Source of the DNA: Ignavibacteriales bacterium
GTDB taxonomy: Bacteria > Bacteroidota > Ignavibacteria > UBA10030
Length of the DNA: 64,000 nucleotides
Direction: 5' to 3'
Assembly: GCA_026390575.1 (NCBI GenBank)
Contig: JAPLFR010000016.1
Span: 186,001-250,000 of the forward strand
Every line of letters starts with the position of its first letter. Within the stretch, counting starts at the first letter, position 1. Made by a program: the position numbers and the translations under genes. Positions 30,586-53,306 of the stretch are shown in pieces. The notes beneath the pieces were generated by a model that saw only the letters and a list, made by a program, of their open reading frames with translations, searched no databases and was not told where the DNA came from.

Positions 30586-30838
30586 CCGATCTAATGATCG
30601 GATGCTACATTATGATATCTCGTCCGTAGAATGTGATTCCAAAAAGAAGGTCAGGGCATTAATCCGTAGAATCCGGTCACCGACCGGATTCCATCATCAT
30701 CCGATCTAATGATCGGATGCTACATTATGATATCTCGTCCGTAGAATGTGATTCCAAAAAGAAGGTCAGGGCATTAATCCGTAGAATCCGGTCACCGACC
30801 GGATTCCATCATCATCCGATCTGGTGATCGGATGCTAC
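30586..30838. repeat. Tandem 115-bp REP/BIME units
   Basis: Two copies of a 115-bp unit (30586-30700, 30701-30815) and a 23-bp partial third copy. Each unit carries a plus-strand REP (GTAG then a CCGGTCACCGACCGG hairpin) and a minus-strand REP (GTAG then CATCCGATC hairpin), facing each other. GTAG at the foot of a hairpin is the signature recognised by REP-associated tyrosine transposases. Confidence 0.85.
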
Positions 30839-31353
30839 TCGTATCTATCAAATTCCTTTGGCGCATCGAAGTCGCAGAAAACATCTTTGAGCCATCCTTT
30901 TTTAACAATCTCACGAAAATTATGATATGGAAAATCTTTGGGTTTAATACCAAGATGCTTCCACGAATTTGAAAAGATATAAGAAAGATGATTTTCAAAA
31001 TCCTTGTTCTCTAATGAAATCCGTATGCAATGGTCCATCGTTCCTCTCTGCCAGACATGCTTTTCTATCCCATGCCTCATGATCTCATGTGATGTAAATT
31101 TCTTGAAGTCTCTCAAAAACACGGACATTGATAGAACAGTTTTAATTTCTACCAAGAGATGAATGTGATCGGGCATAATAGTAAATGCTATTATATCCTT
31201 AAGCTTCTTCGAATAGAATCGTAATTCTTCGATAAGATATTCCGGAATTTGATTTTTATGAAGAAGTTGTTGTCGATTAAAAGTGCAAAACGTGAGAAAA
31301 TATAAAGAATTAGGATCTTGCCATCTTGGAGGTTTTCTCGAAAACGGTTTCAT
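30835..31353 (-). CDS. REP-associated tyrosine transposase (RAYT, TnpA-REP, Y1)
   Basis: About 172 residues from ATG 31353, chosen because GGGGAA lies seven bases upstream; the open frame extends upstream into the flanking repeat but that part is not family-like. It begins with LYFLTFCTFNRQQ, carries the HUH metal motif PDHIHLL, and has the catalytic tyrosine in HLSYIFSNSWKHLG. RAYTs nick single-stranded DNA at GTAG next to REP hairpins. Here the stop codon TAG is itself part of such a GTAG. REP arrays lie on both sides. Confidence 0.9.
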   Translation of the reverse strand: MKPFSRKPPRWQDPNSLYFLTFCTFNRQQLLHKNQIPEYLIEELRFYSKKLKDIIAFTIMPDHIHLLVEIKTVLSMSVFLRDFKKFTSHEIMRHGIEKHVWQRGTMDHCIRISLENKDFENHLSYIFSNSWKHLGIKPKDFPYHNFREIVKKGWLKDVFCDFDAPKEFDRYE

Positions 31354-31373
31354 TAGCATTTCCCCATTGATTC

Positions 31374-31491
31374 GGTAGAATCCCTGCCTGCGGCAGGCTC
31401 GCCTAAGCACAAAGTGCGTCGGCGAGCAGGCAGGCGGTCACCGATCGGATTTATTCACGCAAGAATATCCGATCTGGTGATCGGATGCTAC
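31374..31491. repeat. Right 118-bp flanking repeat of the REP/RAYT island
   Basis: Direct copy of 30462-30579 with two substitutions. Together the two copies bracket the 115-bp tandem units and the RAYT gene. Confidence 0.85.
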
Positions 31492-33870: not shown

Positions 33871-33904
33871 AAAAAAGGGGGCGAATTGTTCGATTCGCCC
33901 CCTT
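33871..33904 (-). terminator. Terminator of trpB2
   Basis: On the minus strand GGGGGCGAAT, a six-base loop and ATTCGCCCCC are followed by six T. It lies 25 bases after the trpB2 stop. Confidence 0.9.
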
Positions 33905-33928: not shown

Positions 33929-35242
33929 TTACTTCCCGTTTCCATTGCCGTTGCCAAGCTTGCCGGCGAAATATGCGTCGTAAGCACTCATATCAAAATG
34001 GCCGTGACCGCTCAGGTTGAAGAGAATAATTTTCTTTGTTCCTTCAACCTTAGCTTTCTTTGCTTCCTCAATTGCCGATTTGATGGCATGCGATGATTCC
34101 GGCGCAGGGATAATTCCTTCTGTTTGCGCGAACAGCACTCCAGCTTCGAATATTTCAGTCTGGCTGTATGCCTGCGCTTCAATCAGTTTATCCTTATACA
34201 ATTTGCTGACGATAGGAGACATGCCGTGGTAGCGTAATCCGCCGGCGTGAATCGAGGGCGGCATGAAATCATGTCCGAGCGTGTACATCATAAGCAACGG
34301 CGTCATTCCGGCAACATCCCCCAAGTCGTACCGGTACTCGCCTTTTGTTAATGACGGACACGTGGTCGGTTCAACTGCAATGGCTCGAAGTTTTTTCCCA
34401 CCAATTTTATCTTTAATAAACGGCAGTACAATACCGCCGAAATTCGATCCGCCGCCCACACAACCGATGACGATATCAGGATACACTCCGGCTTTCTCCA
34501 TTTGTTTCTGCGATTCCAGTCCGATGATTGTTTGATGCAGCAGCACGTGGTTCAACACGCTGCCAAGTGCATAATTGGTATCCTGACGGCCTGCGGCGTC
34601 TTCTACTGCTTCGCTAATGGCAAGGCCAAGGCTGCCGGTTGAATTTGGATTCTTTGCAAGTGCATCCCTGCCCGCTTTTGTGTCGGTGCTCGGACTCGCA
34701 ACCACTTCCGCTCCCCACGTGTGAATCATAGAACGGCGATACGGCTTCTGCTCATAACTCACCTTGACCATATATACCTTGCATTCCATCTTGAACATTT
34801 TACATGCCAACGACAGTGCACTTCCCCACTGTCCGGCTCCCGTTTCTGTGGCAATGCGCTTTATCCCGGCTTCTTTATTATAGTACGCCTGTGCAAGTGC
34901 CGTATTCAATTTATGGCTTCCTGCCGGACTGACACCTTCATATTTGTAATATATTTGCGCAGGAGTATCGAGTGCTTTTTCAAGATCAAGGGCACGGATG
35001 AGCGGCGTTGGACGATACGTGGCGTATGCGTTCCGCACTGCATCCGGAATTTCAATCAGCCGTTCTGTGGTTACTTCTTGTTTTATCAATTCCATGGGAA
35101 AGATTGGTGCGAGATCCTGCGGACCAACCGGCTGTTTGGTGCCGGGATGAAGCGGCGGGTCCATAGGTGTAGGCAGATCCGCAAGGATATTGTAATAGTG
35201 AGTCGGAATTTCTTTTTCTTCGAGCATAAATTTACGTGGCAT
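33929..35242 (-). CDS. trpB2: Tryptophan synthase beta chain, TrpB2 type
   Basis: About 437 residues from ATG 35242 (GGAGG six bases upstream). It is longer than TrpB1 and has the N-terminal extension [17 protein letters not shown] typical of TrpB2. PLP lysine in [16 protein letters not shown], phosphate loop [10 protein letters not shown]. TrpB2 makes tryptophan from indole and serine and often lacks a TrpA partner; no trpA is nearby. Expression is very likely controlled by the Trp leader attenuator directly upstream. A gap of Gly/Asn repeats ends the protein (GNGNGNGK). Confidence 0.93.
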
Positions 35243-35334
35243 AACGACCTCCATGTTGTTGAATGTTGATGTTGTTTATGTGATTAATAATTGTGAACAG
35301 AGGTTCCCACGACAGATCGATTCGGCATGAAACG

Positions 35335-35372
35335 AAAAAAGTGGGAACGCTCTCGTCCGCGTTTCCACCTTT
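35335..35372 (-). terminator. Attenuator terminator in the trpB2 leader
   Basis: On the minus strand GTGGAAACGC (35368-35359) pairs with GCGTTCCCAC (35350-35341) with one mismatch, extended by an A-tract pairing with TTTTTT (35340-35335). The competing antiterminator is GTCCGCG (35417-35411) with CGCGGAC (35361-35355), a perfect 7-bp match that overlaps the terminator arm. Confidence 0.85.
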
Positions 35373-35395
35373 GCTGGGTAATCGATGTAAATGAG

Positions 35396-35476
35396 CTACC
35401 TCAGAGGAAGCGCGGACTTTATCCAGCGCCACCACCAAGCCTGTTGCTGACTGCGATATTCTAATTCATTGCTCAT
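35396..35476 (-). CDS. trpL: Trp leader peptide of the trpB2 attenuator
   Basis: A 26-codon ORF from ATG 35476 to TAG 35396, too short for usual ORF calling. It reads MSNELEYRSQQQA, then WWWRW, then IKSALPLR: four Trp codons within five (35437-35423). The antiterminator half-site GTCCGCG begins five bases after the last Trp codon. This is the layout of classical trp operon attenuators: stalling at Trp codons when tryptophan is short frees GTCCGCG to pair and prevents the terminator. No clear Shine-Dalgarno precedes the ATG; the predicted transcript start is very close to it. Confidence 0.85.
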   Translation of the reverse strand: MSNELEYRSQQQAWWWRWIKSALPLR

Positions 35477-35484
35477 TCTGGAAT

Positions 35485-35514
35485 TAGAATAATAAATCTT
35501 TCAAAAAAAGTCAA
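35485..35514 (-). promoter_or_regulatory. Probable promoter of trpL-trpB2
   Basis: Minus strand TTGACT (35514-35509), 17 bases, TATTCT (35491-35486). The leader peptide ATG is about ten bases after the -10 box. Confidence 0.55.
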
Positions 35515-39174: not shown

Positions 39175-39837
39175 TTATTTGGTTTGCGTAGAGCCGGAAA
39201 TTCCAAATAAGTCATATGGTTGCTTACTAAAATTATCATTGAAGAATAAGGCAACAAGGAAAATGTATGCAGCAAGTCCAACAATAATAAACAACTGAAT
39301 CTTGGAGGTTTTTTGAATGTCGTGTTTTGCTTTTACATCACATACTTCACCGGGGCAGTATTGAACTTTATCTTTAAAAAACATTGGATAAAATTTACAT
39401 CCCAAACAAATACCAAACGCTGATTCAAAGAATAAAAATATCAGGCAGATGAGACAGATAATACCTGTTATCGGGCTATAGGAATTTACGAGCACCATAA
39501 AAACGAACATGAGTGCCGATAACACCACGCCAATGATCCATGCAAACTTTTTTTGTCGAGCCCCGACATATTCCGGGACTTGATTCCCAACAATCAAACG
39601 CCCAATGATTAACGAAGGAGAAAATTTAGGATTAACAAAAACACGTATTATAAAATCTGTAAGGAAGATGGTGATAACATACTTTATCATTATAAAATCC
39701 TGTTTAAAGATAATGAGCATTAAAGACATAAAGACAAATAAAAAATATATTCCTGCTGATGCCCTTATTTCTCGTTCATTTAAAACAGGAATGTTATATC
39801 CTTCTACATCTTCTCCAAATTTTATAATGTTATTCAT
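39175..39837 (-). CDS. DUF4395 membrane protein
   Basis: 220 residues, about five hydrophobic helices. NPKFSPSLIIGRLIVGNQVPEYVGARQKKFAW and ESAFGICLGCKFYPMFFK are the DUF4395 hallmarks. A C-terminal cysteine pair (YCPGEVC) is present. Function unknown; relatives are often near thiol-disulfide or sulfur-transfer proteins. It is the leftmost of the run of minus-strand accessory genes and may be the first member of the cassette array. Confidence 0.85.
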   Translation of the reverse strand: MNNIIKFGEDVEGYNIPVLNEREIRASAGIYFLFVFMSLMLIIFKQDFIMIKYVITIFLTDFIIRVFVNPKFSPSLIIGRLIVGNQVPEYVGARQKKFAWIIGVVLSALMFVFMVLVNSYSPITGIICLICLIFLFFESAFGICLGCKFYPMFFKDKVQYCPGEVCDVKAKHDIQKTSKIQLFIIVGLAAYIFLVALFFNDNFSKQPYDLFGISGSTQTK

Positions 39838-53183: not shown

Positions 53184-53306
53184 CTCTTATTGAGAAAGGC
53201 TGAGGGCACAGGCCCGTGGACGCCTTAGCAACCGGTCCCGATTCTATCGGGATGCTGGTGCTCCATCCTGCCCCCGACGAGGAATCGGACGAGGGAAAGA
53301 TAAGAG
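53184..53306 (+). promoter_or_regulatory. SAM-I (S-box) riboswitch upstream of metY
   Basis: CTCTTATTGAGAAAGGCTGAGGG ... GGCCCGTGGACGCC ... GCAACC ... GGTGCTCCATCC ... GATAAGAG follows the S-box consensus: P1 closes CTCTTAT with ATAAGAG, and the conserved GAGGGA-like, GCAACC and GGTGC segments appear in order. A variable hairpin (GTCCCGATTCTATCGGGAT) forms one arm. An intrinsic terminator follows at once, so the mechanism should be transcriptional: SAM binding favours termination and shuts metY. Confidence 0.93.

Follow-up and report, generated by a model that had tools for sequence, protein, structure and literature searches.

A Trp-codon leader-peptide attenuator upstream of trpB2 in an Ignavibacteriales bacterium, with a proposed relay through a fifth RNA segment

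Leader-peptide attenuation is a textbook mechanism, usually thought of as one choice among three helices. The trp attenuator of Escherichia coli combines a Trp-codon leader ORF, a competing antiterminator and terminator, and a U-tract. In the trp leader of Bacillus subtilis, TRAP controls a terminator and, on readthrough transcripts, the sequestration of the Shine-Dalgarno sequence; this double gating resembles what we propose below, with a protein as sensor and no leader-peptide stalling. TrpB2, the product of the gene discussed here, is a paralogue of debated role. The actinobacterial trp attenuators are built like that of E. coli, and a candidate attenuator is listed among them before trpB2A of C. 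diphtheriae, a trpB2 that may encode another protein subfamily (PMC1262725).

We analysed a stretch of 64,000 nucleotides (the window) from an Ignavibacteriales bacterium (GCA_026390575.1, contig JAPLFR010000016.1, positions 186,001 to 250,000), in which trpB2 is preceded by such a leader. We propose, with a probability of roughly three in four, that it is a ribosome-mediated (leader-peptide) transcription attenuator coupling trpB2 expression to charged tRNA-Trp, and that it is extended by a relay through further RNA segments.

The attenuator upstream of trpB2 and its conservation

The trp-type attenuator described in the original prediction exists upstream of trpB2 (Table 1). The leader ORF of 26 codons with Trp-Trp-Trp-Arg-Trp is present on the minus strand, the terminator with its T6 lies on the same strand between this ORF and trpB2, and the perfect 7-bp antiterminator overlapping the terminator arm has exactly the coordinates predicted (35417-35411 with 35361-35355). 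The antiterminator is in fact longer than first noted, by four more pairs (35409-35406 with 35366-35363) beyond one mismatch, and the terminator hairpin GGTGGAAACGC..GCGTTCCCAC (arms 35369-35359 and 35350-35340, minus strand) also carries one mismatch, A35364 with C35345. In the predicted fold, a 1:2 hairpin overlooked earlier (35430-35421 with 35417-35409) sets the Arg17-Trp18 codons against segment 2. The leader stop codon lies 7 nt downstream of segment 2, so a ribosome completing the peptide would cover that segment, as in the classical model.

Table 1. Positions of the attenuator and its neighbours (window coordinates unless stated)
Feature	Position	Strand	Basis or remark
Promoter-like site TTGACT-17-TATTCT	35486..35514	-	Sigma-70-like consensus scan, 9 of 12; ends 9 nt before leader ATG
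Leader ORF, 26 codons + TAG, peptide MSNELEYRSQQQAWWWRWIKSALPLR	35396..35476 (ATG 35476)	-	Trp codons W14-16 and W18 (WWWRW)
Segment 1, pairs with segment 2 (1:2 hairpin)	35421..35430	-	Predicted leader fold
Segment 2, antiterminator 5' arm, within leader ORF	35406..35417	-	2:3 covariation
Segment 3, common to antiterminator and terminator	35355..35369	-	2:3 and 3:4 covariation
Segment 4, terminator 3' arm and loop GAG; putative partner of segment 5 in the relay state	35341..35352	-	3:4 and 4:5 covariation
U-tract of first terminator (T6)	35335..35340	-	Sequence reading
Segment 5, GTGGGAACCTCTG	35298..35310	-	Reverse complement of arm 4: 8 bp + 3 bp across a bulged C
Shine-Dalgarno of trpB2, GGAGGT	35247..35252	-	Sequence reading; opening modelled
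trpB2	33929..35242	-	TrpB2 profile matches
Terminator-like hairpin after trpB2, GGGGGCGAAT..ATTCGCCCCC T6	33871..33902	-	Sequence reading
Second Trp leader MSQSVNHIVSSNNRWWWRSSVSKRTGMKTDS, with 9-bp terminator, before trpEGDCFBA	L003 14488-14330 (own genome, C7)	-	Upstream of trpE

The product of trpB2 scored above both curated cut-offs (NCBIfam NF009057, 748.4 bits; TIGR01415, 658.5 bits). Judging from inspection of relatives, its start codon is probably that at 35242, 4 nt after the Shine-Dalgarno sequence, rather than the in-frame ATG at 35254, which overlaps that sequence; the terminator-like hairpin downstream suggests that the gene is probably monocistronic. The consensus scan found two sigma-70-like sites at the score of the promoter-like site in the region, compared with 1.6 expected from shuffles. 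In 22 of 27 leaders (those of the 29 whose ATG was located by script), a site scoring at least 8 lies 7-17 nt ahead of this ATG, and the leader ORF starts 7-11 nt after the -10 hexamer in 19 of the 27 measured (35476-35491 in the window, and aligned relatives), so that the leader peptides are probably translated from almost leaderless mRNA.

Folding of the window leader by itself was unremarkable (z -1.58; 12 of 200 shuffles equally good), and the case is therefore carried by conservation. Rfam elements (trp leader, T-box and others) searched at gathering score did not match the attenuator; ten related loci gave one tRNA only, and the only match in the window was a SAM (S-box) riboswitch elsewhere, at 53184-53306 on the plus strand (63.6 bits; gathering score 44.4). 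The window also encodes a DUF4395 (PF14340) protein at 39175-39837 on the minus strand, and a paper title cited in PMC4833913 ties DUF4395-domain regulation to sulfur metabolism.

TrpB2 was searched for in a set of 61 genomes, in the family (matches in 19 of 32 genomes at E≤1e-60), and in the order (39 of 98 at E≤1e-150). In the family, 15 genomes combine a TrpB2 of 65% identity or more with a linked upstream region, and all 15 carry a Trp leader followed by a hairpin; outside these stand G017 (leader L146 at a contig end, unlinked), G002 (gene fragment), and copies about 50% identical (the second copy of G008, G015, and G030), of which the one read, L032 of G030, has W-containing ORFs upstream but no such leader. 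Outside the family, 24 genomes of the order had a match at E≤1e-150, and a Trp leader with a terminator-like hairpin was found in 7 of the 19 upstreams read (L015-L018, L119-L121). Two more loci were not counted as attenuators: L023, despite a W-rich ORF (..NAWRWWQT), and L024, which has a TGG run and no ORF by the rule used and which nevertheless carried the label 'single' in the TrpB2 tree. In a protein tree of 65 TrpB2 rows, 13 sampled rows of the window type cluster with support 94/82, just under the star of the tool, while sampled members of the order that lack the element fall elsewhere.

Alignment A2, built without structure, holds 19 of the 29 leaders finally collected (f3, aroF, out-of-order, and later-found leaders being excluded). 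The antiterminator 2:3 was 81.0% paired with 8 pairs changed on both sides (count matched by 1 of 500 shuffles), the terminator 3:4 was 88.4% paired with 5 such pairs (16 of 500), and a further helix, 4:5, was 85.7% paired with 6 (2 of 500), compared with 29-52% pairing in slid controls; the covariation score of each helix was reached by 0 of 500 shuffles, and these shuffle counts are not probabilities, the sequences being related. Aligning the upstream regions of relatives' trpB2, the check proposed in the original prediction, showed that the Trp codons are kept and that both competing helices covary. Clustered and conserved Trp codons, an intrinsic terminator between ORF and gene, and a mutually exclusive, covarying antiterminator are thus found together here, and the comparison supports, for this TrpB2-family gene, an upstream attenuator of the leader-peptide type with Trp codons, kept in relatives.

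The unexceptional fold of the window sequence is what could be said for a chance ORF with WWW beside an ordinary terminator. We regard this explanation as practically negligible, because conservation and covariation already refute it and because W-rich ORFs show a strong strand bias: of 76 named TrpB2 loci for which 150 nt or more of upstream sequence was available, 12 have one on the sense strand and none has one on the opposite strand, and among 68 trpB2 upstreams of Smithella relatives (see below) a Trp leader occurs in 61 compared with one on the opposite strand.

Segment 5 and the proposed relay

Segment 5, overlooked by the first reading of the window, is the partner of arm 4 in helix 4:5, which by comparison of the aligned leaders covaries about as strongly as the terminator 3:4. 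This helix takes in bases of the terminator loop (GGAG with CUCC; columns 94-95) that lie outside the pairing of the arm with segment 3, and it is therefore not a mere shadow of 3:4. Comparison shows the leader and the helices 2:3, 3:4, and 4:5. Of 29 leaders, 19, including the window, have a 4:5 duplex better than shuffled downstream sequence at p≤0.05; the other 10 (L006, L007, L012, L013, L119, L149, L153, L155, L017, and L018) do not, L006 and L007 being from the same genus as the window. When partners were swapped among 27 leaders (L153 and L155 omitted), the own partner was above the median swap in 22; on average, a fraction of 0.23 of the swaps did as well. A conserved 4:5 helix competing with 3:4 was found both in the window group and in Smithella relatives.

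In nascent chains folded to segment 5, the modelled probability of 4:5 rose by more than 0.3 when segment 2 was free in 12 of 19 window-group leaders; this shift was absent in L001 (the window), L011, L013, L020, L030, L119, and L120. In the modelled nascent fold of the window, 4:5 beat 3:4 even with segment 2 covered (1.00 versus 0.00), so that 3:4 would have to act before segment 5 is made.

The proposed mechanism is as follows. When tryptophan is short, the ribosome would stall in the WWW run and leave segment 2 free to pair with segment 3; formation of 2:3 would block the terminator 3:4, and the freed arm 4 would capture segment 5 once it is transcribed, leaving the output open. When tryptophan is plentiful, the ribosome would reach the stop codon and cover segment 2, and 3:4 would form and terminate; in transcripts that escape, the free segment 5 would close a second gate. 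In relatives this gate may be an intrinsic terminator (5:6) or the Shine-Dalgarno sequence of trpB2, and in the genus of the window it is probably the latter. We infer the ribosome stalling, the tRNA response, and the sequence in which the helices fold, as well as what segment 5 acts on in the window species.

The leader could also be a plain four-segment trp attenuator in which segment 5 is a functionless by-product, e.g., the remnant of a duplicated terminator hairpin. Arms 3 and 5 resemble each other, so a duplication could yield 4:5 complementarity; moreover, the modelled switch is absent in the window, its second hairpin lacks a good U-tract and its Shine-Dalgarno effect is small (see below), and Trp leaders with a single terminator do exist at trpB2 (L017, L018, L153, L155, L069, L095, and L107). 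We nonetheless consider it unlikely, since 4:5 covaries about as strongly as 3:4, uses loop bases outside the partner of arm 3, and outperforms the median swap in 22 of 27 leaders, and the Smithella-type leaders described below argue against it as well.

Distal gates and the spread of the architecture

Two gates can be considered for the output of the proposed relay. A second hairpin (5:6) followed by U-rich sequence occurs in L015, L016, L019, L030, L149, and L150, while in L119 and L121 the second hairpin is present with a weaker U-tract. The second hairpin of the window has no good U-tract, and in L016 it is the first hairpin that lacks one.

Segment 5 of the window can form 7 pairs (2 of them G-U) with the Shine-Dalgarno sequence of trpB2. 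Modelled opening of the Shine-Dalgarno, computed for all 29 leaders, was easier with arm 4 free by 3.6-4.8 kcal/mol in L004, L126, L006, L007, L008, L010, and L011, of which the first four, congeners of the window, gained 3.6-4.3 kcal/mol. In the shuffled-arm modelling, which covered 21 of the 29, these seven gains were matched by 0-10% of shuffled arms (7-10% for L006, L007, L010, and L011). The window gained 1.46 kcal/mol (matched by 3%), and its sequestration in the OFF state was matched by 45% of shuffles; other gains were 1.50 (L020), 1.39 (L013), 0.68 (L009), and 0.28 kcal/mol (L012), with nine others from -3.22 to 0.90. Among 19 leaders tested, the own duplex of segment 5 with the Shine-Dalgarno stood out from swaps (no more than 12% did as well, whichever partner was exchanged) only in L010, L011, L012, and L121; that of the window was no better than with swapped partners. 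The models make a Shine-Dalgarno gate plausible in the genus of the window. A role of segment 5 on the Shine-Dalgarno only, as an anti-Shine-Dalgarno CCTCC, was the first idea; it was demoted because of these swap results and because the same bases turned out to have the terminator loop and arm 4 as partners.

The clearest case of the relay, on comparative and modelling grounds, is that of the Smithella relatives. This set comprised 79 genomes (G393 and relatives), 71 of them with TrpB2, and 68 upstreams were read, three partial genes being left out. In Smithella leader L079, helices 1:2, 2:3, 4:5, and 5:6 are four of the five top-scoring ones, 3:4 scores lower, and T8 occurs only after 5:6. 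In an alignment of 56 Smithella-type leaders (five near-identical ones were dropped), pairing was 99.4% for 1:2, 96.2% for 2:3, 84.5% for 3:4, 89.3% for 4:5, and 95.1% for 5:6, compared with 31-61% in slid controls, and the covariation score of each of the five helices was matched by 0 of 500 shuffles. Because the counts of pairs changed on both sides were often matched by shuffles (82, 205, 17, 41, and 149 of 500 for 1:2 to 5:6, respectively), the support rests on the covariation score and on pairing far above the slid controls.

A U-tract of T4 or more follows arm 4 in only 2 of these 56 leaders (L231 and L241), while T4 or longer follows 5:6 in 52 (two more have TTTCTT, and two were shortened by trimming). 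With no U-tract behind 3:4 in 54 of 56, something must link the sensor to the distal terminator, which counts against a plain four-segment attenuator. Equilibrium folding of the full leader failed as a test of the relay: 5:6 formed regardless of segment 2 (difference >0.2 in 1 of 56), and a relay would therefore have to be kinetic. Antitermination generally acts in time. Nascent chains ending before segment 6 were used afterwards, and in these the mean modelled probability of 4:5 fell from 0.85 to 0.08 when segment 2 was covered instead of free; the difference exceeded 0.3 in 48 of 56 leaders, and in 46 with four more columns.

The same data bear on the idea of tandem independent terminators, in which the second hairpin merely catches readthrough without leader-peptide control. 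Two hairpins with U-tracts do occur in L015, L149, L150, and L045, and the equilibrium behaviour of 5:6 fits it, yet arm 5 would then not need to match arm 4, as it does, and where the first hairpin has no U-tract (L016 and the 54 Smithella-type leaders) an uncontrolled second terminator would abolish regulation. We hold this idea to be improbable, even more so than the plain attenuator, and retain the relay.

By our own reading, five or six of the 12 W-rich leaders at named TrpB2 loci are real. In L045, which stands beside a Nitrospirae row in the TrpB2 tree, the terminators are in tandem and arms 4 and 5 share 8 of 9 pairs by eye. The trpB2 leader L150 (G344, same class as the window) has two strong tandem terminators with complementary inner arms (UCACGGC and GCCGUGA). 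When 391 genomes of the class were scanned with a covariance model built from A2, 70 gave a match at E≤0.01, many of them weak. The scan also found the architecture before genes of the DAHP-synthase type in three genomes of the window's order (L148, L149, and L151): the gene of L148 scores as DAHP synthase (NF006421, 427.9 bits; cut-off 335), those of L149 and L151 are alike by sequence, and the leaders carry Tyr codons (RYYLYYYPW, RYYYYFYF, and RYYFYYF, respectively). Segment 5 of this Tyr version is complementary to arm 4, and L148 and L151 passed the shuffle test, whereas L149 fell short of it (p 0.074).

Putative relay-type trpB2 leaders, some of them in distantly related bacteria, occupy four places in the TrpB2 tree (the window's order, the Smithella relatives, L045, and L150). 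The tree demands at least three label changes, two of them forced by well-supported branches, and the leaders may have one origin with losses. On balance we favour, with less assurance than the mechanism itself, a widespread six-segment relay attenuator, in which a sensing switch (2:3 versus 3:4) would flip a second one (4:5 versus 5:6 or 5:Shine-Dalgarno), on trpB2 in these four places and in the Tyr version, with lineages differing in the working gate (both terminators, the distal one only, or terminator and Shine-Dalgarno).

Link to tryptophan supply and comparison with known systems

The target was predicted to be a stand-alone TrpB2 and not a trp operon; this is so in the window genome and fails in G006 and G009, where the element, adjoining the same pyrophosphatase gene, heads trpB2-trpE-trpG-trpD-trpC-trpF-trpB1-trpA. 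Both trpE and trpB1 of G006 pass NCBIfam cut-offs. In the window's own genome, a separate WWWR leader and terminator precede a trpEGDCFBA cluster whose genes were assigned by inspection. By analogy, trpB2 may respond to charged tRNA-Trp and be a real tryptophan source, and the analogy is strengthened because the element heads a trp operon in these two relatives and because the own trp operon has a Trp leader. The simplest view is that trpB2 once headed the trp operon or does so optionally. This view favours a role in tryptophan supply but is no proof of it; the element would tie TrpB2 to that supply.

Other sites of the own genome were considered. The trpE leader was rejected as a second relay: besides WWWR it carries a 9-bp terminator, but segment 5 is missing and a clear antiterminator was not found. 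A third TGGTGGTGGCG site, also rejected, falls inside a coding sequence, presumably that of a pseudouridine synthase. No leader was visible at the two best of the four matches to DAHP synthase. Two ORFs, at window 30835-31410 and at L003 14568-15107 (both minus strand), resemble what we take to be REP-associated (Y1-type) transposases; the former lies about 4 kb from the trpB2 leader, and the latter precedes the trpE leader by about 80 nt.

The core attenuator is a further member of the known leader-peptide type. A relay attenuator was not found in the open-access literature searched; PMC4833913 attributes 'chains of RNA helices' in attenuation to Lopatovskaya et al. (2010), which may hold a similar idea (helices that follow one another, and regulation that overlaps the ribosome-binding site) and is the main risk to novelty. 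The original prediction called leader-peptide attenuation unusual for this phylum; this agrees with a 2010 survey, according to which such systems were known only in Proteobacteria and Actinobacteria, with Firmicutes added (PMC2965389), although trpB2 has Trp leaders in Smithella relatives and a few others too. A conserved helix that carries the decision onward would show that attenuators can be chained, how evolution can exchange a terminator gate for a translation gate, and that bacteria labelled Bacteroidetes and Smithella relatives make use of the mechanism.

Compared with the attenuators of E. coli and actinobacteria, the window type adds the fifth and sixth segments of the putative relay, a nearly leaderless leader ORF, and a target gene of the TIGR01415 type. 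The rimP-leader of some Gammaproteobacteria has a tandem second terminator and a potential antiterminator, and one of its motifs is the inverse of the downstream terminator's, so that arms might pair; it precedes another gene, and the passage on it describes no leader peptide (PMC2965389). In the tlrB (yxjB) leader of B. subtilis, a leader peptide governs both an intrinsic terminator and a Shine-Dalgarno-sequestering hairpin, as proposed here, while both hairpins are blocked there by the stalled ribosome itself, an overlapping antiterminator was not identified, and tylosin rather than an amino acid is sensed (PMC6851288). The window type, in contrast to tlrB, would pass its state from one RNA helix to the next.
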